Of a stretch of 20,586 nucleotides of DNA, positions 5,895-18,237 are shown piece after piece. Each line of letters begins with the position of its first letter. Positions within the stretch are counted from its first letter, which is position 1. The stretch is from positions 1-20,586 of the IMG/VR virus record IMGVR_UViG_3300013126_000308; one strand, written 5' to 3'. Source of the stretch: a virus. Both the position numbers and the translations under genes were made by a program. The notes below the pieces were generated by a model that was not told where the DNA came from, did not search any database, and saw nothing but the letters and a program-made list of their open reading frames with translations.

Positions 5895-8495
5895 ATGAAC
5901 GATCTAACTAAATATTTAGTTGAAGGTATTCTCGCTGAGATGCAAGGAGGAATCAAAGTAATGCTCCCAGGAGGATTTAAGCCACCACACGAAGGACATC
6001 TTATGCTAGCAAAAGGGTATGCAAGTATGCCCAATGTAAACGAGGTAGTAATCTTAATTACACCAAAAGAACGAGATGGAATTACTGTACAAGATGCTAA
6101 ACAAATTTGGAACTTACTCCTAGCTGGAGTTTCTGATGTAAAAGTGCAAGAGACAAAGATACCAAGTCCATTGACAGCAGCTTACGAATACGTTAAGAAT
6201 GATGCAAAGACTGGTGAAACTGTAGCTCTCGGAGCTAGCAGCAAAGGAGACGACTACGCTCGTGTTAGGGATTTTGTAGCACAGCACCAAGAGGGTGGGA
6301 AGTATTACAAAAATGGAGTAAACGTTGTTGAACTTCCCTTTGAAAGCTCTAAGCCACTGCTGTACAAAGGACGTACGGACGGAAAGGACGGGCAGCCTAT
6401 TAGTGCATCACAACTTAGAGCAGACCTAGCAGCAGGTGATTTAGAAAACTTTAGAACAAATTATCCTAGCATTAAGTCTGAGTCAACAATTCAAGCAATC
6501 TACGACATTTTAAAAAAAAATCAACCAACAGCTGATGCATCTGTAGTTTCTGAATATGGTAAAACGTTCACGAGAGTTGGACCCAACTTTGATAAGGGTG
6601 TTCAACAAATAAAATCAGTAATGCAGACCTTTTTTCAAAGGTTAAAGTCAGCACCAAGAGACCTGCAAAGAGACTTTGCACAGCTTTATAAGCACATCAC
6701 CAAAACAGGACGCATACTAACTCGAATTGAAGTAGAGGATATAGCTGAAAAGTTGGAACCACTTTTAGTTAGATCCGGCTACCACAAGACACTAAATAGC
6801 AAAGAATATCCAATTGCTTTTTTGCAAGCTTTAAAGACTTTTCCTAAGTTACAGACCAAAATACCACAAGAAGTGTTAGCTGAGCGGGACAAGATCAACG
6901 AAAGCTTAAAGCAAAGCTTACAAAAATTATTACAAAAAGGAGGAACCTTAGCTAGATCGGTGTTTGATGCAGCTAAGCGTGAAGGCAAGGAAACAGTAAA
7001 AGCAGTTGAATTGATCAACCAAGCATTAGGTGGAAAGCAGCTTAGTGACAACGAAAAAGTATTTCTTAAAGCACAATCTAAAGACTTAGTAAAGGTGCTA
7101 CCACTTGTTGCAATACAAGCAATTCCACTACCAATTCCAATAACTCCATTCCTAGTTGTGCTTGGTAAAAAACTCGGATTTGATGTACTTCCAAACTCAC
7201 ACAAAACAATGCCACTAGCAGCTCTTACTGAGCGTTTGTTGTTGAAAGAAGGAGGAGCAGCAGGGCATATGGCTCATCCGTATGAGGATGTTGATCTGAC
7301 TTTTGAGGAAGTAGAAAACATGATAGATGCTGCACTTACAGGAAAGGTGGAGTATGCTCAAGAAAAATTAGATGGCCAAAATCTAATGGTGACATACAAA
7401 GACGGAAAGGTGTTGTCCGCTAGAAACAAAGGGCAACTAAAGAACGCTGCTGAAAAGGCTATGACAAAAGCTGACATGGAAGCGTCGATGGCACATCTAC
7501 CGGACAATGTTAAAAACTCGTTTCTTGATGCAATGGGCGATACGGAAGCTGCAATCAACAAACTATCACCAGCAGAAAAAGAAGAGTACTTTGGTAACGG
7601 TAAAAAGTTTGTCAATATGGAAGTACTACACCCAGCCAGCCAAAATGTAGCTGCATACGGTGTTACCGAGCTTAGGATGCACAATATACAAGAGTACGAT
7701 GAGGAGGGCAACGTTATCGGATCTGACGCTACTGCCCCAGCAAAACTGCAGGCTGCATTAGATCGTGTAGAAGCAACAAAACAAAGTACTTACGATATTA
7801 AGTCGACCGATATGGTTAACTTGAAAAAAACTGCTGATTACGAAAAACAAAAAGAACAACTAATAGCAGACCTAAACAGTATTCGTTCAAAATACAATCT
7901 AAGTAAAGCTAGTAAGCTAGGTTTATATTTTCAAAATGCTTGGATGGATTATATCAAAAAAGCAGCGAGAGATTATCAATACGATATACCAGCCGACGTG
8001 TTGCAAAACATTGTAAACCGATGGGCTTTTGGATCCAAGACACCAGACTTACGACAAGTAAAACAAAGCATTGCTAATCCTCAGTTTCAACAATGGTTTA
8101 TGGATACAGACAAAGGACCAGCGGTACGTGATCAAAAAAAAGCAATTGTAGAGCCAGTAGAGGATATTTTTCTTAAACTAGGTGTATTTGTGTTACAAAG
8201 CTTAGAAGGATTAGTGGCAATTAATCCTAACGATTCTATTGCTAAGATGAAAGACGAATTAGCAAATTCAATCGAGGCTATTAAGCAAAAAGCAAACAAT
8301 AGCGAGATGGGAGATGATGATGCATCTATGAAGTTTTTAAAGCATCAACTTAAGCGTCTTGAGAAGATTGGCGGATTTAATGCAATCCTTCCAACGGAGG
8401 GAATTGTATTTAAGTACAACGGAAAGTTATACAAATTAACAGGAGCTTTCGCTCCACTTAATCAAATTATTGGGTATATTAAATTTGGAAGATAA
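5895..8495 (+). CDS. Fusion: HxGH nucleotidyltransferase + LETM1-like hydrophobic middle + polynucleotide-ligase-like domain (866 aa)
   Basis: Three parts are visible. (1) Residues about 20-200 are a cytidylyltransferase/NMN-adenylyltransferase-like domain: GGFKPPHEGH at 26-35 gives the HxGH nucleotide-binding motif, and ISASQLR at 169-175 matches the ISxSxxR motif. (2) After a helical, Lys-rich stretch (about 225-395), residues 398-435 form a Pro-rich hydrophobic segment (VLPLVAIQAIPLPIPITPF) followed by LGFDVLPNS, resembling the LETM1 membrane-proximal motif. (3) Residues about 460-866 carry ligase/capping superfamily motifs: EKLDGQN with probable nucleotidylated K491, FVNMEVLHP (E576), TEGIVFKY (E835) and YKLTG (K847). 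Motifs III and IV are about 258 residues apart, far longer than in compact ligases. Substrates are unknown; NAD metabolism, RNA/DNA end repair or protein nucleotidylation are possible. Start at 5895 directly abuts the upstream stop. Domain calls are good for parts 1 and 3, weaker for part 2. Confidence 0.8.
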   Translation: MNDLTKYLVEGILAEMQGGIKVMLPGGFKPPHEGHLMLAKGYASMPNVNEVVILITPKERDGITVQDAKQIWNLLLAGVSDVKVQETKIPSPLTAAYEYVKNDAKTGETVALGASSKGDDYARVRDFVAQHQEGGKYYKNGVNVVELPFESSKPLLYKGRTDGKDGQPISASQLRADLAAGDLENFRTNYPSIKSESTIQAIYDILKKNQPTADASVVSEYGKTFTRVGPNFDKGVQQIKSVMQTFFQRLKSAPRDLQRDFAQLYKHITKTGRILTRIEVEDIAEKLEPLLVRSGYHKTLNSKEYPIAFLQALKTFPKLQTKIPQEVLAERDKINESLKQSLQKLLQKGGTLARSVFDAAKREGKETVKAVELINQALGGKQLSDNEKVFLKAQSKDLVKVLPLVAIQAIPLPIPITPFLVVLGKKLGFDVLPNSHKTMPLAALTERLLLKEGGAAGHMAHPYEDVDLTFEEVENMIDAALTGKVEYAQEKLDGQNLMVTYKDGKVLSARNKGQLKNAAEKAMTKADMEASMAHLPDNVKNSFLDAMGDTEAAINKLSPAEKEEYFGNGKKFVNMEVLHPASQNVAAYGVTELRMHNIQEYDEEGNVIGSDATAPAKLQAALDRVEATKQSTYDIKSTDMVNLKKTADYEKQKEQLIADLNSIRSKYNLSKASKLGLYFQNAWMDYIKKAARDYQYDIPADVLQNIVNRWAFGSKTPDLRQVKQSIANPQFQQWFMDTDKGPAVRDQKKAIVEPVEDIFLKLGVFVLQSLEGLVAINPNDSIAKMKDELANSIEAIKQKANNSEMGDDDASMKFLKHQLKRLEKIGGFNAILPTEGIVFKYNGKLYKLTGAFAPLNQIIGYIKFGR

Positions 8496-8496
8496 C

Positions 8497-8802
8497 ATGA
8501 GATCAACAAGACTAAAAACGCTTTTAGAAAAAAAAGAAGCAATTGCTACGTCAGCGGCAACAAACATTACATTACACTACGATCCTCAGTTTACTGAGAT
8601 AGGTGAAGAGGGTAAACCTGAGTACAGCTTTACAATTAGCATGTCCTCAGTAGGAGGTAAAGAGTACTTTCGAACTGTAGCTAGTAAAGAAGAGGAGGCT
8701 AAGTTAGCAGAAGCTGTGCGCTTAGAATTGCGCAGAGCTCTTCGTAGGTTTGATGCACGCGTTACTGAAGTCTTAGAAAAATATAGTATACAACCACGAT
8801 GA
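8497..8802 (+). CDS. Small conserved-looking protein of unknown function (101 aa)
   Basis: I chose ATG 8497, one base after the upstream stop, over an in-frame TTG at 8470 that would overlap the ligase-fusion gene. A weak GGAAG lies 6-10 bases upstream, one of the few purine-rich leaders in this window. The protein has a basic N-terminal helix, a beta-rich middle (SFTISMSSVGGKEYFRTV) and a charged C-terminal helix (residues about 63-95). There are no catalytic motifs, cysteines or membrane segments. It lies between the ligase fusion and the zinc-ribbon gene, with an ATGA overlap to the latter that implies translational coupling. No function can be assigned. Confidence 0.7.
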   Translation: MRSTRLKTLLEKKEAIATSAATNITLHYDPQFTEIGEEGKPEYSFTISMSSVGGKEYFRTVASKEEEAKLAEAVRLELRRALRRFDARVTEVLEKYSIQPR

Positions 8803-9314
8803 AAAAATTTGAAGTTACAAGAGCAAAGTTTGTAGAACGCAAGGAGGGTGACGTTTGGGAGGAAGGAGGAAAAACCTGGACTATTAAGAACGGCATTAAG
8901 CGCACAGCCACTAAAATGGATGATGCTAGAAAAAAAATGCTAATGCCATTAGCGTGTCCGGATTGTGGAAAGGCTATGAAATCGCATTGGGATAAGAAAT
9001 TCTGGGTGATTAACCAGACGTGCTTTGATTGCTTGGTTTGGCATGAACATGAGATTAGAACAATGGGTAAGTGGGAGGAGTACGAGCGAGCTAAGATTAG
9101 CGCAAATGCCAAGGCATTCTTAAAGGACGTTAAAGATGGCCTGCAAAATTACTCAGAGCAATCCATGGATAACAAGCATGTTACAGAGGATGGCCGTATT
9201 GAAAAGTGGCAAGGTCCAGATAAAAAGGTTATTGAGGAGTACATTGACAAAGAAATTAAACACTTAGAGACAGTAGTCAATAACTACATAAAAGATGAAC
9301 CAAAAAAAGATTAA
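8799..9314 (+). CDS. Zinc-ribbon phage protein (171 aa)
   Basis: Two CxxC pairs, CPDC at residues 53-56 and CFDC at 75-78, are separated by 18 residues and form a probable zinc ribbon, followed by WHEHEIRTMGKWEEYERAK. This ribbon-plus-GKWEEYE layout resembles a small family I associate with T4-like phages of unknown role. The C-terminal 60 residues are a charged helix ending in DEPKKD. There is no DNA-binding helix beyond the ribbon and no catalytic signature. The start overlaps the previous stop (ATGA at 8799) and the last 20 bases overlap the next gene, so all three are probably translated together. Nucleic-acid or protein binding is plausible but unproven. Confidence 0.75.
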   Translation: MKKFEVTRAKFVERKEGDVWEEGGKTWTIKNGIKRTATKMDDARKKMLMPLACPDCGKAMKSHWDKKFWVINQTCFDCLVWHEHEIRTMGKWEEYERAKISANAKAFLKDVKDGLQNYSEQSMDNKHVTEDGRIEKWQGPDKKVIEEYIDKEIKHLETVVNNYIKDEPKKD

Positions 9315-9807: not shown

Positions 9808-11367
9808 ATGCCATACACGTATAAAAAAGTAGGGGACCAGTACTGCGTTTATAAAAAAGACGGAGGAAAGAAGGTTGGGTGCACTGATGGCAACAAAGAA
9901 TCACTCAACAAGTACTTAGCAGCGTTACACGCAAACGTAGATGAGCAAAAAAGTTTAAGTATTTTTAATACAATTCGTGAATATCTTAAAGAAGACGATC
10001 AGGTACTAAAAACCAATGAGCCTATTGGATTAAAGACATTTGCCAGTAACAAAGCAGCATCGGATGCAATCGTTGGATCTGGATTAGAGGATGGCGATAA
10101 GCAGGACGATAGGATAGGGGGTCAGTCTGCAACGATTGCAGTCAAAGACTTAAAGCCAGCCCAAACTGAAATCATAAAAGAAAAAGCATTTGGAATGGCA
10201 ATTGGAATGCTTGAGCAAGGTAAGTGGGATGGCCTAAGTCTAGGATCTATCGTATCCAACGATAACTACATCATGGATGGTCACCATAGGTGGGCAGCAG
10301 TATCTCTTATTGATCCAAAAGCAACTTTAAAAGTAATGGCTATTGATTTGCCCGGAGGTCCACTGGTAAGCGCACTCAATGCAGCTACTGTAGGAAAGCT
10401 AGGAATAACAAGTGGTAACAAAGGAAAGGGAAACGTGCAAGAGTTCACTGGAGATAAAATGTCAGCTGTAATTGATAATGCAATGGCAGTAGGTGTTAAA
10501 GACGAGTTTCCAAAAAGTCCAGATCAAGTAAAACAAGCGTTAGGAAAAATGCCGGGAGCAAACGGAGATCCCGAGAAGGGTAAGCAAATTATGCTCAAAA
10601 ACGCTGACGCATTGCCAAAACAAATAATGCCCGATGCTCCACCGAGAGTTAATATGCCAGTAATCAGTCCAGAAAAAGTAAATACAATACAAAAAATGAT
10701 AGCAAAAGGAACCTTAGATTTAAAACCACCGTTTAGCCCAACTGTAGATAAGCTCACACCATTGAGTGAGTCTGAGATAATAAGCAAGCAATTAACTCAC
10801 TGTCAGCAGTGGTTGCGTACCGGTAAGCATATTAGTGAGATTAAATTTACATCTTATGGTATTCCGGAAATACTACAACTAGTATATGATAATCCAAACT
10901 CACTAAAAGTGCTTGGGTATCGAGATTTTAAGCATTTTTTAGAGTGGGTCAAGGATGATTGGGATCAAGAAGAGCATAAACAAGCAGTAATGCAGCTGCG
11001 AGCTGCAAAAATACCAGGAGCTGAAAAACTTGTGTTTGAAATTAAACAACAAATGAAAAAAGAATACAAACAAAAGCTAGAAGAACAACTAGCTCGTAAA
11101 CTGATTAGAAAGTACCTTAAAGAAGCTGAAGGAGAAGAGGAGGATGGAAAACAACCTGATGCTGAAAAGATACAAGATGAGCCAGGATTAGATCCAGAGT
11201 TATCTGAGATCACAGACTTATACATCAAAAAGCTAAAAAACGCTCAGTCTGCAGTTGACCAGAGTGATGTTGTTGAAATTATTGCACAACTACTAGACAG
11301 CTTTGGATACGGAAACCAAGATAAACTAACAGTGCTTCAAGGAGCAAAACAATTATCAGTACGATGA
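9808..11367 (+). CDS. ParB-like domain phage protein (519 aa)
   Basis: The first 45 residues form a small module (YKKVGDQYCVYKKDGGKKVG, then NKYLAALHAN) that I associate with short proteins of marine T4-like phages. Residues about 105-190 look like a ParB/sulfiredoxin-like fold: VKDLKPAQ, then GKWDGLSLGSIVSNDNYIMD and DGHHRW at 157-162, the expected ParB nucleotide/phosphate-binding motif. Residues about 315-410 form a helical region with HFLEWVKDDWDQEEHKQAV, followed by a charged coiled-coil tail. ParB-like domains act as CTP-binding switches, nucleases or kinases, and which applies here cannot be seen. No ParA gene is nearby, so plasmid-type partition is unlikely. The stop overlaps the next start (ATGA at 11364). 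Gene call strong, domain call moderate. Confidence 0.75.
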   Translation: MPYTYKKVGDQYCVYKKDGGKKVGCTDGNKESLNKYLAALHANVDEQKSLSIFNTIREYLKEDDQVLKTNEPIGLKTFASNKAASDAIVGSGLEDGDKQDDRIGGQSATIAVKDLKPAQTEIIKEKAFGMAIGMLEQGKWDGLSLGSIVSNDNYIMDGHHRWAAVSLIDPKATLKVMAIDLPGGPLVSALNAATVGKLGITSGNKGKGNVQEFTGDKMSAVIDNAMAVGVKDEFPKSPDQVKQALGKMPGANGDPEKGKQIMLKNADALPKQIMPDAPPRVNMPVISPEKVNTIQKMIAKGTLDLKPPFSPTVDKLTPLSESEIISKQLTHCQQWLRTGKHISEIKFTSYGIPEILQLVYDNPNSLKVLGYRDFKHFLEWVKDDWDQEEHKQAVMQLRAAKIPGAEKLVFEIKQQMKKEYKQKLEEQLARKLIRKYLKEAEGEEEDGKQPDAEKIQDEPGLDPELSEITDLYIKKLKNAQSAVDQSDVVEIIAQLLDSFGYGNQDKLTVLQGAKQLSVR

Positions 11368-12556: not shown

Positions 12557-14125
12557 ATGAGTCAGCCGAGCTTAAAAGAAATAATCAAAGCAGAGTACGT
12601 AAAGTGTGCCAAGGATCCGGTATACTTTATGAAAAAGTATTGCTTGATTCAGCACCCTACTAAAGGGAAAATACCATTTAAACTGTTTCCATATCAGGAA
12701 GACTTAACAAACGATATTCAAACCAACGATAGGGTTGTGATTCTCAAATCACGTCAGTTAGGTATTTCAACATTGTCTGCGGGGTACTCGCTGTGGATGA
12801 TGCTGTTCCATACAGACAAAAACATACTAGTAGTTGCAATTGATCAAAACACTTCAAAAAACCTTGTAACAAAGGTCAATGTGATGTTTGAGAATCTACC
12901 AAGTTGGTTAAAAATGAGAACCACAGAAAAGAACAAGCTTTCCCTTAGGCTTGCAAACGGATCTCAAATTAAAGCGGTAGCAAGCTCAGGAACATCAGGA
13001 CGATCAGAGGCACTCTCTTTAGTGATTATAGATGAGGCAGCGTTCGTTGATAATGCTGAAGAGCTGTGGGCATCACTACAACAAACACTATCAACCGGTG
13101 GTAGAGGCGTAATTTTAAGTACACCAAACGGTACTGGTAACTTTTTTCATAAGTTATGGATAGCCTCGGAGGAGGGTAGAAACCAATTTGTCACTAGAAG
13201 GTTACCATGGCAGGTACATCCAGAGCGTACGCAGGAATGGAGAGACAGACAAGATGTAGAGCTCGGCTTACGTCTTGCAGCTCAAGAATGTGACTGTGAC
13301 TTTAGCACATCTGGTAATACAGTAGTTCATCCAGAGATGCTAATTTTTTATCGAGAAACTTACATGCAAGATCCGGTAGAGAAGAGAGGTTTTGATGGAA
13401 ACTATTGGATGTGGGAGATACCAAACTATACTAAAAACTATGTTGTTGTAGCTGACGTTGCCCGCGGTGATGCATCGGATTTTTCAGCTTTTCATGTAAT
13501 CGATATTGAAGAGGCAACCCAAGTTGCTGAATACAAAGGACAACTCAGCACTCGCGATTACGGTAACCTATTAGTCTCTGTTGCAACAGAGTACAACGAC
13601 GCACTGCTTGTTATTGAAAACGCCAACATAGGGTGGGCTACAATTCAGCAGGTGATTGAGAGAGGATACAAAAACCTCTACTATACACCAAAAGATATGG
13701 GACTAGATCCTGAACGATACCTAGCTCGCGCAACAGACTTGCAGCAGCAGCGAGAGCAGGTTGCTGGTTTTACTATGTCACATAAAGTGCGACCGTTACT
13801 AATAAGTAAGATGGAGTTGTATATGCGAGAAAAAAGCTGTATAATAAGAAGCAGAAGGCTTCTCGATGAGATGGGCGTTTTTATATGGAAAAACGCAAGA
13901 GCTGAAGCACAAGTTGGTTATAATGATGATTTGGTTATGAGTTGGTGTATGGGTTTGTGGGTAAGAGATACAGCTCTTAGATTAAAGCAACAAGGTATTG
14001 AACTGACCAAGACAACGTTAAACCATATGCGATCAACTGGAGTATACAAGCCAAGCTATAACAATACAGAAGCTTGGAGGATGAATGTAAATGGACAGCA
14101 AGAGGACATTTCGTGGTTAATTTAA
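12557..14125 (+). CDS. terL: Terminase large subunit, T4 gp17-like (522 aa)
   Basis: This is the motor that translocates DNA into the prohead and cuts the concatemer. N-terminal ATPase: KSRQLGIST at residues 64-72 occupies the Walker A position, followed by Walker B LSLVIIDEA (153-161, with D159/E160) and coupling motif LSTPNG (187-192). C-terminal RNase H-like nuclease: ADVARGDASDF with D300 and D308, VIEN with E354, and GYNDDLVMSW with D457/D458. The Walker A is deviant: Ile stands where T4 gp17 has the P-loop Lys in SRQLGKTT, and a Lys (K64) sits at the start instead, as in lambda gpA. Length is slightly short of T4 gp17 (610 aa). No small terminase is visible upstream. The portal gene follows after 24 bases. 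Confidence 0.95.
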   Translation: MSQPSLKEIIKAEYVKCAKDPVYFMKKYCLIQHPTKGKIPFKLFPYQEDLTNDIQTNDRVVILKSRQLGISTLSAGYSLWMMLFHTDKNILVVAIDQNTSKNLVTKVNVMFENLPSWLKMRTTEKNKLSLRLANGSQIKAVASSGTSGRSEALSLVIIDEAAFVDNAEELWASLQQTLSTGGRGVILSTPNGTGNFFHKLWIASEEGRNQFVTRRLPWQVHPERTQEWRDRQDVELGLRLAAQECDCDFSTSGNTVVHPEMLIFYRETYMQDPVEKRGFDGNYWMWEIPNYTKNYVVVADVARGDASDFSAFHVIDIEEATQVAEYKGQLSTRDYGNLLVSVATEYNDALLVIENANIGWATIQQVIERGYKNLYYTPKDMGLDPERYLARATDLQQQREQVAGFTMSHKVRPLLISKMELYMREKSCIIRSRRLLDEMGVFIWKNARAEAQVGYNDDLVMSWCMGLWVRDTALRLKQQGIELTKTTLNHMRSTGVYKPSYNNTEAWRMNVNGQQEDISWLI

Positions 14126-14149: not shown

Positions 14150-16015
14150 ATGGCTGAAAACCAAAACCCAAATTTATTTCAACGACTACAACGGCTATTT
14201 AGCACTGATGTTATTATACGTAACGTTGGCGGTAACCAATTAAAGGTTGTTGACACAGACCACTTACAGTCTAGTGGTAACCTGCAAAACAATAGCCGTA
14301 TTGACAGATTTAATCGACTATACGGAACCGGACCAACAACCGCTTACAACAATGGACAGCTATTACAAGCTACTCGTCTGGAGGTTTTTCGTGATTACGA
14401 AGCAATGGATTCCGACAGTATTATATCATCCGCTTTGGATATTTACGCAGACGAATGCACTGCAAAGGATGAGTTTGACGACACACTAACAGTTGTAACT
14501 TCTAACGAAAAAATATACAAAGTACTTCACAACTTATTCTATGACATTCTAAATGTTGAGTTTAATTTGTGGCCATGGATTAGAAGTACATTAAAATACG
14601 GTGACTTTTTCCTACACTTACATATCACAGAAAAATATGGGATTACAAACGTAGAGCCTATATCTGTTTATGAGATGATCCGAGAGGAAGGAGTAGATCC
14701 TGAAAAACCAAATGAAGTAGTATTTAGACGAGACTTATCAGCTGGAGTAACAACTACTGCGACATTTTATCGCAGAGACCTTGACTCATTAGAATATCAA
14801 AACTACGAAGTTGCACACTTTCGACTACTTACAGATACAAACTTTTTACCATATGGTCGATCGTTAATTGAGCCAGCACGTAAGGTTTGGAAACAGCTAA
14901 CACTAATGGAAGATGCAATGTTGATTCACAGAATCATGCGAGCTCCAGATAAACGAATCTTTAAAATTGATATTGGAAACATCCCACCAGCAGAGGTGGA
15001 TGCGTTTATGGAATCAACCATAAACAAAATGAAAAAGATTCCATTCATGGATGAGGCCACAGGCCAATACAACTTAAAGTACAATATGCAAAACATTCTT
15101 GAAGATTTTTATCTTCCAGTTCGTGGAGCAGAAAGCGGCACTACTATCGAGACTACACCGGGATTACAGCACGATGCAATTCCAGACATTGAGTATCTTA
15201 AAAACAGAATGCTTGGGTCATTGAAAATTCCTAAAGCATACTTGGGGTACGAAGAAGACACTACCGGTAAGTCTACTTTGTCATCTCAGGACTTTCGCTT
15301 TGCTAAAACAGTAGAGCGTATTCAAAAGATTATTGTATCTGAACTAACAAAGATTGCAATCATTCACTTATATGCTCAAGGTTTTGAAGATGAGGAGATT
15401 GTTGATTTCTCCTTAAAACTTACACCACCAAATACAATCTACGAAAGAGAGAAGATTGAGTTGTGGACATCCAAAGCAGGCTTAGCACAAACCTTAATTG
15501 AGCAGCGATTGTTCAGTAAATACTGGTGTTATGAAAATATCTTTAACATTCCAGAAGAGGATTGGTTGAAAGAACAAGAGAGTATTGCAAAAGGCGAAAA
15601 GGAGTTTTTCCGATTAGAGCAAATTAAAACGGAAGGAAACGATCCAGCCAAAACAGGACAGTCATTTGGAACACCACACGATATAGCGTCACTTTACAAA
15701 GGTGATGGAGGAGTACCTAGAGGGTATGATGAAAAGGAAGTACCTCCGGGCGGATGGGATGGAGCAGGAAGACCCGAAGAACCGGGCACCTACATGACTC
15801 ATCAACATCCAATGGGATGGGATCCGTTTGGTAGAAAAGCGTTTAAGGTTGCTCGAAATGTTTATGAAACAGCAAAAAATGCAGGAAATGGAGGATTAGT
15901 GAAACATAAAGAGGCATTAGCTAGCTTTGACAAGCATCGAGCTGTTCGCGAAACTTATCAAGAAAAACCAGAAGGACCATCGCTACTTAACGAGGAAAAC
16001 ATACTAGACGAGTAA
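14150..16015 (+). CDS. Portal protein, T4 gp20-like (621 aa)
   Basis: The portal is the dodecameric ring at the head vertex through which DNA enters and leaves and on which the terminase docks. Portal-type features: LEVFRDYEAMDSDSIISSAL and DIYADECTAKDEF (about 78-108), the wing/stem region around LKYGDFFLHLHI and the MIREEGVDPEKP loop, GRSLIEPARKVWKQLTLMED preceding the long helix, and GSLKIPKAYLGYEED with SSQDFRFAKTVERIQKII in the clip/crown part. It is about 100 residues longer than T4 gp20 (524 aa). The extra C-terminus (from about 505) is Gly/Pro-rich (GGVPRGYDEKEVPPGGWDG) and ends LLNEENILDE, which contains a possible prohead-protease site. The ATG at 14150 follows CCTATTTAT in the 24-base gap. 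Confidence 0.9.
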   Translation: MAENQNPNLFQRLQRLFSTDVIIRNVGGNQLKVVDTDHLQSSGNLQNNSRIDRFNRLYGTGPTTAYNNGQLLQATRLEVFRDYEAMDSDSIISSALDIYADECTAKDEFDDTLTVVTSNEKIYKVLHNLFYDILNVEFNLWPWIRSTLKYGDFFLHLHITEKYGITNVEPISVYEMIREEGVDPEKPNEVVFRRDLSAGVTTTATFYRRDLDSLEYQNYEVAHFRLLTDTNFLPYGRSLIEPARKVWKQLTLMEDAMLIHRIMRAPDKRIFKIDIGNIPPAEVDAFMESTINKMKKIPFMDEATGQYNLKYNMQNILEDFYLPVRGAESGTTIETTPGLQHDAIPDIEYLKNRMLGSLKIPKAYLGYEEDTTGKSTLSSQDFRFAKTVERIQKIIVSELTKIAIIHLYAQGFEDEEIVDFSLKLTPPNTIYEREKIELWTSKAGLAQTLIEQRLFSKYWCYENIFNIPEEDWLKEQESIAKGEKEFFRLEQIKTEGNDPAKTGQSFGTPHDIASLYKGDGGVPRGYDEKEVPPGGWDGAGRPEEPGTYMTHQHPMGWDPFGRKAFKVARNVYETAKNAGNGGLVKHKEALASFDKHRAVRETYQEKPEGPSLLNEENILDE

Positions 16016-16895: not shown

Positions 16896-17620
16896 AAAGA
16901 AGCGAACAAAAAGAGCTTAAAGAGTTTGTAAAAAAGCAACTAAAAAACATGCGAGAAGGTAGCACAACTGCAAATGTTGCTAGCTACAGCACTCCTAAAG
17001 CGTTTGTGGGTAATGAAAAAGCAGATGAACCTACTTCCTTTGATGTAGAAGACGATCAGTATGCTTATTCAATTAAAGCACCAAAAGAACGTAAAAACTC
17101 AATCAAACTGCACGAGGTGTCTTACAAGTCGTTCAAAATGGACGAAACAAAAACAAGCGTGCAAAAAGTTAACCAGAACATATTGGAAGTAGCTAAGCGT
17201 TTGGGTGAAGTTGCAAGAATGCTAAATCACAGTATTAAGCTAAAGACAGAACATAAGCTACCAAAAGCTCACTGGAAACGAACCAACGAAGCTTTGGTCA
17301 AGATACATCAACGAATCTCAGAGCTTACAGAAAGAGCTAACAAACTATACAATCTAAACGAAGCTACTGCACAATCAATTAAACAAAAGTTGGTAGATTA
17401 TTTCAACAAAGCTGGTGTTCAAATTAGACCACAAGATGTTGAGTACAATCAAACTGGAACAGATCAGTATGAGTTTGACGTAATGGTCTTGGGTGAGCCA
17501 CAGGCTATTGATTATACAAAAGGTATGCTAATATATCAGGGCTATGACAAAGAACAACCGTTAGGAAATTTAGATCAAGAAGCTGAAGTTGTTGCAAACT
17601 TAATGAAAATACTTAGCTAA
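16892..17620 (+). CDS. Head-module protein, possible internal core protein (242 aa)
   Basis: No named family recognised. The very basic N-terminus (MKRSEQKELKEFVKKQLKNM) is followed by a flexible region, a helical bundle at about 80-150 (KVNQNILEVAKRLGEVARML) and a C-terminal alpha/beta part (about 160-242) with GVQIRPQDVEYNQTGTDQYE and FDVMVLGEPQAID. NLNEAT at residues 154-159 separates helical and alpha/beta halves and matches the T4 prohead-protease pattern L-x-E followed by Ala. Position between portal and protease is where T4 encodes internal core proteins gp67 and gp68. The start is coupled to the upstream stop (ATGA), and its TAA shares its last base with the protease ATG (TAATG). Confidence 0.7.
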   Translation: MKRSEQKELKEFVKKQLKNMREGSTTANVASYSTPKAFVGNEKADEPTSFDVEDDQYAYSIKAPKERKNSIKLHEVSYKSFKMDETKTSVQKVNQNILEVAKRLGEVARMLNHSIKLKTEHKLPKAHWKRTNEALVKIHQRISELTERANKLYNLNEATAQSIKQKLVDYFNKAGVQIRPQDVEYNQTGTDQYEFDVMVLGEPQAIDYTKGMLIYQGYDKEQPLGNLDQEAEVVANLMKILS

Positions 17621-18237
17621 TGAAACGAGTAATTGTAGACTATATTGGATCAATTGAAGTGTCTCCGGCACAAATTAACGAATCACTTGCACAAAACAAT
17701 GGAAAGCTGATTGTGTCTGGAGTCATGCAACGAGGAAGCACACCATCCGATCGCGCTTTTAATCAAAACGGCAGAAGCTATCCATTACCAATCTTAAAAC
17801 GAGAAGCTGACACCTATAAAAAAACATTTGTAAAGGAGCGTAGAGCTTTAGGTGAGCTAGACCATCCAGAATCTCAAGTAGTAAATTTAGCAAACGTATC
17901 TCACAATGTCCTAGATTTGTGGTGGCAAGGAAACGACTTAATGGGTAAGATTGAAATATTATCAACACCATCCGGAAACATTGCCAAGGAGTTGCTAAAA
18001 TCGGGCATTCGATTAGGAATTAGTTCACGAGGAATGGGATCGGTTAAAGAACTTGGAGAAGGAAAGGTTGAAGTTGAAGAGGACTTTGAAATTGTTTGTT
18101 GGGACTTAGTAAGCAATCCATCAACACAAGGAGCTTTCATGTCACCGTCTTTAAACGAAGGTGTTCAGTCAAGTAATCGAACTAGTTATAATAAAATTAA
18201 CTCACTTATTAATGAGATAATAACAGTAATGCAATGA
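17620..18237 (+). CDS. Prohead core protease, T4 gp21-like (205 aa)
   Basis: This serine protease cleaves scaffold, capsid and internal proteins during head maturation. Family features: a beta-rich N-terminus GKLIVSGVMQRG, NGRSYPLPIL (51-60), GELDHPES with catalytic His82, VSHNVLDLWWQG, and GISSRGMGSV with the catalytic Ser at 135 or 136, followed by VCWDLVSNPS and AFMSPSLNEG. His and Ser motifs sit in the order and spacing of the gp21/HK97-type herpesvirus-assemblin-like fold. Length matches T4 gp21 (212 aa). Two [L/I]NE sites flank the domain (INES at 19-22 and LNEG at 178-181), as expected if the enzyme trims itself at both ends. It is coupled to both neighbours by overlap. Confidence 0.92.
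   Translation: MKRVIVDYIGSIEVSPAQINESLAQNNGKLIVSGVMQRGSTPSDRAFNQNGRSYPLPILKREADTYKKTFVKERRALGELDHPESQVVNLANVSHNVLDLWWQGNDLMGKIEILSTPSGNIAKELLKSGIRLGISSRGMGSVKELGEGKVEVEEDFEIVCWDLVSNPSTQGAFMSPSLNEGVQSSNRTSYNKINSLINEIITVMQ

Follow-up and report, generated by a model that had tools for sequence, protein, structure and literature searches.

An adenylyltransferase fused to an RNA-ligase-like domain in aquatic T4-like phages, with a predicted capsid-targeting sequence

The fusion gene, its neighbours and its relatives

The window analysed here, the whole 20,586-base virus record IMGVR_UViG_3300013126_000308, contains a gene for a protein in which a HIGH-superfamily nucleotidyl transferase domain is connected, through a variable middle region, to a predicted domain of the RNA ligase superfamily. 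The earlier note on this DNA proposed that one polypeptide holds both domains and that its gene is located among phage head genes. Both proposals hold: a single frame of 866 codons is open from 5895 to 8495, and the genes of the large terminase subunit, portal protein and prohead protease were found downstream. The features are as follows.

5895..8495, plus strand: whole fusion gene (adenylyltransferase, variable middle, RNA-ligase-like domain); 866-residue open reading frame with ATG start, and relatives
5895..5939, plus strand: residues 1-15, MNDLTKYLVEGILAE, predicted capsid-targeting sequence with an L-X-E prohead-protease site at its end; from [LI]xE statistics and the T4 rule (PMC9026906)
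5946..6530, plus strand: HIGH-superfamily nucleotidyl (adenylyl) transferase domain, residues 18-212; from motifs, fold, NCBIfam and a PDB profile match to PPAT (3e-4)
6531..7220, plus strand: variable middle region, residues 213-442; low model confidence, last part similar to an LR745206 protein
7221..8492, plus strand: RNA-ligase-superfamily (covalent nucleotidyltransferase) domain, residues 443-866; from invariant motifs and predicted fold
7365..7367, plus strand: motif I lysine K491 (EKLDGQN), predicted AMP-accepting nucleophile; invariant, n=59
7620..7622, plus strand: motif III glutamate E576; invariant, n=59
8397..8399, plus strand: motif IV glutamate E835 (EGIVF); invariant, n=59
8433..8435, plus strand: motif V lysine K847 (YKLTG); invariant, n=59
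8799..9314, plus strand: Zn-ribbon-like protein, next after the fusion gene in most relatives; from synteny and weak Zn-ribbon matches
9808..11367, plus strand: ParB-like domain protein (phrog_2859), a separate gene in the window; profile match
12557..14125, plus strand: terminase large subunit, context (phrog_2, 1e-46)
14150..16015, plus strand: portal protein, context (phrog_213, 3e-61)
17620..18237, plus strand: prohead (head maturation) protease of the gp21 type, candidate processor of the N-terminal tag (phrog_207, 1.4e-49)

An SbcC-like open reading frame (38-1837) covers only profile positions 404-952 of 967, probably because the record ends within the gene.

The first relatives were found in the Microcystis phage Mel-JY01 (639 residues) and two huge phages, and single parts of the protein in Lak phages and LR745206. 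A search of IMG/VR with an alignment of four ligase halves (A1) identified the ligase half in at least 586 confirmed stretches, among at least 600 matches. The profile search of genome contigs gave only six matches, in short MAG contigs that are probably viral. The search for the same domain order in marine T4-like phages, which the earlier note had suggested, was successful: the adenylyltransferase is part of the same reading frame in 37 of the 39 relatives with a complete N-terminus. The two exceptions are L042, which contains only the second half of the adenylyltransferase, and L058, a stand-alone ligase. In the huge phage LR756500, the ligase gene is directly followed by a gene with a C-terminal adenylyltransferase, and a similar gene lies further downstream of the L058 ligase. 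An assembly error as the origin of the fusion was ruled out, because the fusion recurs in dozens of contigs and in a cultured phage. Among aquatic T4-like phages, the adenylyltransferase-ligase fusion is a recurring arrangement. The gene order of virion genes, fusion, Zn-ribbon, terminase, portal and protease, with further genes before the terminase and before the protease, is kept even where the fusion proteins are just 33-39% identical to that of the window.

The fusion had been put forward as the best candidate for an undescribed system. In the accessible portion of the open-licence literature, we found neither the ligase half nor a fusion of a HIGH adenylyltransferase with a ligase described, so that this part of the claim stands. 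However, the window is not a singular case, and proteins of the same structure are publicly recorded under the label 'Cytidyltransferase-like domain-containing protein'; the protein of the cultured phage Mel-JY01 is annotated 'cytidylyltransferase like protein' (WWT39297.1).

Conservation and folds of the two domains

Single-sequence profile searches with the window protein detected both halves weakly (PF01467 0.15, TIGR00125 0.003, PF09414 0.14), and alignments were therefore built. The marks of NMN-adenylyltransferase type, (H/T)xGH and ISxSxxR, which the earlier note had recognised as HxGH and ISxSxxR, are present in the N-terminal part as GGFKPPHEGH and ISASQLR, and residues H35, S170 and R175 show no or almost no variation among 19 relatives. 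The PF01467 match is stronger in relatives, down to 2.6e-9. Structure prediction, one of the checks suggested beforehand, returned the HIGH-superfamily fold for residues 18-212, and the model resembles PPAT, NaMNAT and NMNAT structures with Z about 13-14.6 (about 14 for the PPAT/NMNAT fold). PPAT and NMNAT folds score equally high. The dN/dS of the adenylyltransferase part is 0.055 relative to a 91.5%-identical relative and ranges from 0.055 to 0.17, which indicates strong purifying selection on this part. The HIGH motif drifts to GPHH (GRFQPFGPHHKK) in many marine relatives (L062, L026, L031, L075 and others), in which the first histidine is lost and another is gained; a TGAH variant also occurs.

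The residues that the earlier note had assigned to ligase motifs I, III, IV and V (K491, E576, E835 and K847; columns 49, 134, 393 and 405 of the first sequence of alignment A4) are all invariant in the 59 sequences of A4, as are E490, D493, G494, R510, N511, G836, T849 and G850. PF09414 matches 29 of the 59 ligase domains weakly (best 0.0035) and stays below its curated cut-off in the window protein and the 59 relatives, and PF09511 was not among the matches, which places the domain outside the T4 Rnl1/Rnl2 family proper. No Pfam or PHROG family scored above cut-off for the ligase half, and the Pfam scan did not bear out the assignment of the domain to a DUF family of cyanophages. Searches of the PDB gave only chance matches, both with the single sequence and with the profile of the ligase alignment, which matched ribosomal protein S6 in a helical stretch. 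Therefore, the ligase assignment needed a comparison of folds.

The AlphaFold2 model of residues 443-866, calculated with A4, has a pLDDT of 90 and a pTM of 0.87. RNA ligases are at the top of both the Foldseek list against the PDB, with modest E-values, and the VIA list, in which the highest Z, about 9, is moderate only: Naegleria Rnl 9.3, fungal Trl1 8.8, T4 Rnl1 8.8 and T4 Rnl2 8.2, compared with 5.4-7.4 for DNA ligases and 5.4-5.7 for capping enzymes. The window domain has motifs I, III, IV and V in the same order as these RNA ligases, and its core superposes on theirs with Z 8-9. In contrast to them, it has no appended C-terminal domain, carries a helical insert between motifs III and IV and is fused to a HIGH adenylyltransferase. 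Motifs III and IV are separated by 259 mostly helical residues, and the chain extends no more than 19 residues beyond motif V, so that its accessory domain is inserted rather than appended. Judged from the model, residues 443-866 form an RNA-ligase-superfamily domain with both the motifs and the core fold.

The position of the gene among head genes and the drifting HIGH motifs would be expected if the fusion were a head protein in which relic enzyme folds serve a purely structural purpose. We consider this extremely improbable, given the invariant ligase motifs and the low dN/dS of the adenylyltransferase.

N-terminal tag and predicted packaging

Protease gp21 of T4 cleaves after L/I-X-E, and T4 internal proteins have targeting sequences of 10-20 residues (PMC9026906; PMC5694885). 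The window protein starts with MNDLTKYLVEGILAE, in which LAE occupies residues 13-15. The N-terminus follows the pattern M(N/S)xLxxxLVExxLxE in the clade of the window, and KLTEWLVKPFLNE or MSLKKLVEEITKPILQE in marine relatives. A sequence [LI]xE ends at residues 8-20 in 73.8% of the family reading frames, as opposed to 2.4% at residues 40-52, a statistic that is not independent because the members share ancestry, although the X residue varies freely. A separate count of the tag pattern in the family agrees (32 of 40). The N-terminal extension is missing from one subgroup (L024, L030, L041, L057 and L060). The N-terminus of the window protein thus fits, by its sequence, a T4 capsid-targeting sequence with a gp21 site.

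In the phage collection, the closest terminase is that of Flavobacterium phage immuto. The tag pattern is present in 18 of the 35 head-module reading frames of immuto and in 19 of the 114 elsewhere (p = 9e-5). Many unrelated head-module proteins, encoded at 100-140 kb of immuto (L103, L104) and in L008-L020, begin with a short helix that terminates in [LI]xE, such as MIKLKDLLNE and MKKSELVKLIKE; it looks as though an entire group of proteins were directed to the prohead. The ligase alignment had no match in immuto. Its 907-residue 'NadR' protein starts with a Pol-beta-like part and also contains a GGFKPPHLAH domain, and no ligase was found in it.

Distant relatives of the adenylyltransferase have been detected in virions: the 'cytidylyltransferase' T4-GC190 in S-SM1 (PMC3037559), the cytidylyltransferase ORF154 in S-CREM2 (PMC10665884) and an NMNAT in S-SCSM1 (PMC9602691). 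The mass spectrometry covers these relatives rather than the ligase-bearing family itself, and the authors of two of the proteomes caution that such enzymes may be carried over in CsCl (PMC10665884, PMC9602691). The S-CREM2 protein gp154 begins with MKNFSSFLTEA. Encoded close to it is gp156, likewise listed in the virion table, which aligns with the Pol-beta insert of the relative L062 at 32% identity across 234 residues (1e-34). By analogy with these proteins and with the T4 tag rule, there is fair support for packaging of the fusion protein in the virion. It would share with T4 internal proteins and Alt a tag of 10-20 residues ending in L/I-X-E and a gp21-like protease encoded in the same gene cluster; it differs from them in its cargo, a putative RNA-repair and adenylyltransferase enzyme, and in that its packaging is predicted. 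Polyvalent proteins of phages are likewise large and composed of several domains, their enzymatic modules are exchangeable, and packaging and injection have been predicted for them; the available part of the 2017 survey by Iyer et al. reports no RNA ligases among them (PMC5512222). Unlike polyvalent proteins, the window family has a constant adenylyltransferase-ligase core and a short T4-type N-terminal tag.

Exchangeable modules and proposed function

The modules around the constant core are swapped among relatives, which carry a HAD phosphatase, a Pol-beta transferase, a P-loop kinase or none of these. A P-loop kinase precedes the core in L063 (AAA_33 4e-7, Zeta_toxin 1e-6), L078, L086 and others. 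A HAD-like domain was seen in the alignment of L019 and L052, the latter matching phrog_415, 'polynucleotide kinase', with 9e-12. The relative L062 contains a Zn_protease-like domain and a Pol-beta-like transferase (phrog_36119, 1e-43), which we do not call RlaP because the Pfam scan gave no RlaP match. Phage LR756508 (L002:4483-7230) has the ParB-like domain (phrog_2859), encoded separately in the window, fused in front of the adenylyltransferase-ligase. Almost no sequence separates the two core domains in L013-L015. In the window, residues 349-447 of the middle region are 47.5% identical to a stand-alone protein of the huge phage LR745206 and match LETM1_RBD weakly; the LETM1-like segment is common to the window and L005. 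No recognised end-processing domain was found in the window's own middle region, and PDB searches with the HAD and kinase inserts gave nothing useful.

Polynucleotide kinases, HAD phosphatases and Pol-beta transferases are described as partners of phage RNA ligases in the repair of cut tRNA (PMC7824862). The swapped modules match this RNA-repair set better than they match NAD synthesis. Together with the RNA ligases as nearest folds and the invariant catalytic residues, these end-processing-type modules in the same reading frame point to RNA repair. We favour, at somewhat less than even confidence, a bifunctional enzyme that is packaged in the head and injected with the DNA for the early repair of broken RNA ends, most likely those of tRNA cut by a host defence. 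Mel-JY01 and LR756508 speak against RNA repair, since they also carry separate Rnl1/Rnl2-type RNA ligases, so that another RNA ligase is not obviously needed in some of these phages.

The HIGH domain might alternatively be an NMN adenylyltransferase that sustains NAD+ against NAD-depleting defences, with the ligase-like domain using NAD+, or its NMN being recycled, in a closed cycle. The best matches of the adenylyltransferase domains in relatives are to NMNAT/Nudix (NadM) models (L064 3.6e-8, L002 2e-7), and the authors of cyanophage studies take the virion relatives as NMNAT (PMC10665884, PMC9602691). Several marine relatives have a NUDIX gene just upstream of the fusion (L020:49-480, PF00293 1.8e-18), and NadM is an NMNAT-Nudix fusion (PMC9503650). 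However, the NCBIfam equivalog cut-offs of 100 or more bits are never reached (best 20 bits for the window, up to 33 bits for relatives), and the window domain is equally close to PPAT and NadD. NadV is stated to accompany every phage NadM (PMC9503650), yet it was found in only one of four related genomes. Furthermore, in the stand-alone ligases L058 and L003 the conserved block is preceded by only some 20 residues, which leaves little room before motif I for an NMN-binding Ia domain of the LigA type. The family shares the HIGH domain with NadM and with NadR, an NMNAT-kinase, and some relatives have a Nudix gene or P-loop kinase nearby; it differs in the fusion to a ligase fold and in the kinase of its relatives, which matches AAA_33/Zeta_toxin. 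We regard the maintenance of NAD+ as an unlikely alternative. The limited room for an Ia domain and the three genomes without NadV also weaken the coupling of cofactor synthesis to end joining proposed in the earlier note, the simplest form of which needs an NAD+-dependent ligase. The NUDIX genes (L020:49-480 and equivalents in L021, L033, L037, L065, L074 and L078) encode a tag-like N-terminus, MSIPKLKDLLKE.

Because the gene adjoins those of the terminase and portal, a role in repair of DNA ends or nicks tied to packaging or injection can be proposed, in which nicks in phage DNA are sealed at the head. The position upstream of the terminase and portal genes is conserved, and DNA ligases belong to the same superfamily. 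Nevertheless, RNA ligases outscore DNA ligases in the fold comparison, the neighbourhood may merely reflect late expression and packaging, and RNA repair explains the swapped modules at least as well, which makes DNA sealing rather improbable. Instead of joining ends, the enzyme might transfer nucleotides to a host protein or to RNA 5' ends, similar to capping or RNAylation: the ligase fold would make AMP-enzyme and pass the AMP on, and the HIGH domain would add a nucleotide such as NMN to ATP-ended RNA. NMNATs and RNA ligases have been proposed as possible non-canonical capping enzymes (PMC8131947), and ligase folds and GTP capping enzymes form one superfamily. We nonetheless consider such nucleotidylation highly improbable, as E. 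coli NadR and NadD did not cap RNA when tested (unpublished data quoted in PMC8131947) and our analysis yielded nothing positive for it.

For RNA repair by a packaged enzyme, the following mechanism can be proposed. The N-terminal helix MNDLTKYLVEGILAE would direct the protein into the prohead core, where a gp21-like protease would cut after LAE. The protein would be ejected with the genome, as suggested by T4 internal proteins and the virion proteomes of relatives. In the cell, K491 would become adenylylated, and the ligase domain, judging from its fold and invariant motifs, would seal 5'-phosphate to 3'-OH ends, probably of RNA rather than DNA, because the nearest folds are RNA ligases. The adenylyltransferase domain may support the reaction or the adenylate/NAD pool of the cell, with NMN or another small phosphate as the acceptor, and the P-loop kinase, HAD phosphatase and Pol-beta transferase of relatives may prepare the ends. 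We infer both the substrate and the coupling of the two domains.

Phage RNA repair is known as the work of enzymes that are made during infection, and we know of no other virion-borne RNA repair system. A ligase that rides in the virion would act before host anticodon nucleases stop translation. More tentatively, we speculate that T4-like phages of seas and lakes inject, together with their DNA, a single protein in which an adenylyltransferase and an RNA ligase are joined by swappable end-healing modules; the phage would then counter host tRNA cleavage or NAD depletion ahead of its own gene expression. The family makes virion-borne RNA repair testable, and Microcystis phage Mel-JY01 is a cultured carrier. 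As the family is very common in aquatic viromes and its ligase half is unnamed in the libraries searched, the annotation of hundreds of genomes would change.

In cyanophages and huge phages, genes of the ligase-like and adenylyltransferase types lie side by side or are fused, with either one in front. In S-SM1, GC71 is the gene before GC190, and the pair is adjacent in many cyanophages. Cyanophage T4-GC190 (phrog_395) and T4-GC71 thus resemble the window family in having a HIGH adenylyltransferase of T4-like phages, detected in virions, beside a ligase-like gene; they differ in being separate genes in most cyanophages, with the ligase part first, and, in S-PM2, in their position close to replication genes. 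A 591-residue S-PM2 protein joins both parts and matches the fold of the fusion family at rank 13 (E 1.6e-4); its ligase-like half, with the sequence KWDGAPA, is related to GC71. When A4 was compared by hhalign with the N-terminal regions of the S-PM2 and L003/L058 proteins, no support was obtained, so that these links are drawn solely from fold or motif. A ligase-like nature of GC71 is likewise suggested by the S-PM2 fold match and motifs, as sequence profiles gave no connection. The resequenced S-PM2 genome (L119:268-2043) has one 591-residue ligase-like and adenylyltransferase reading frame, whereas the older record NC_006820 has two genes, GC71 and GC190, at 103025-104804; the discrepancy is either a sequencing difference or a real fusion. 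A second type of protein, with a possible N-terminal ligase-like motif E[NK]L[DN]G and a C-terminal HIGH adenylyltransferase, is encoded in L003 (7268-9229) and L058 (5594-7330), downstream of the stand-alone ligase of the fusion family.
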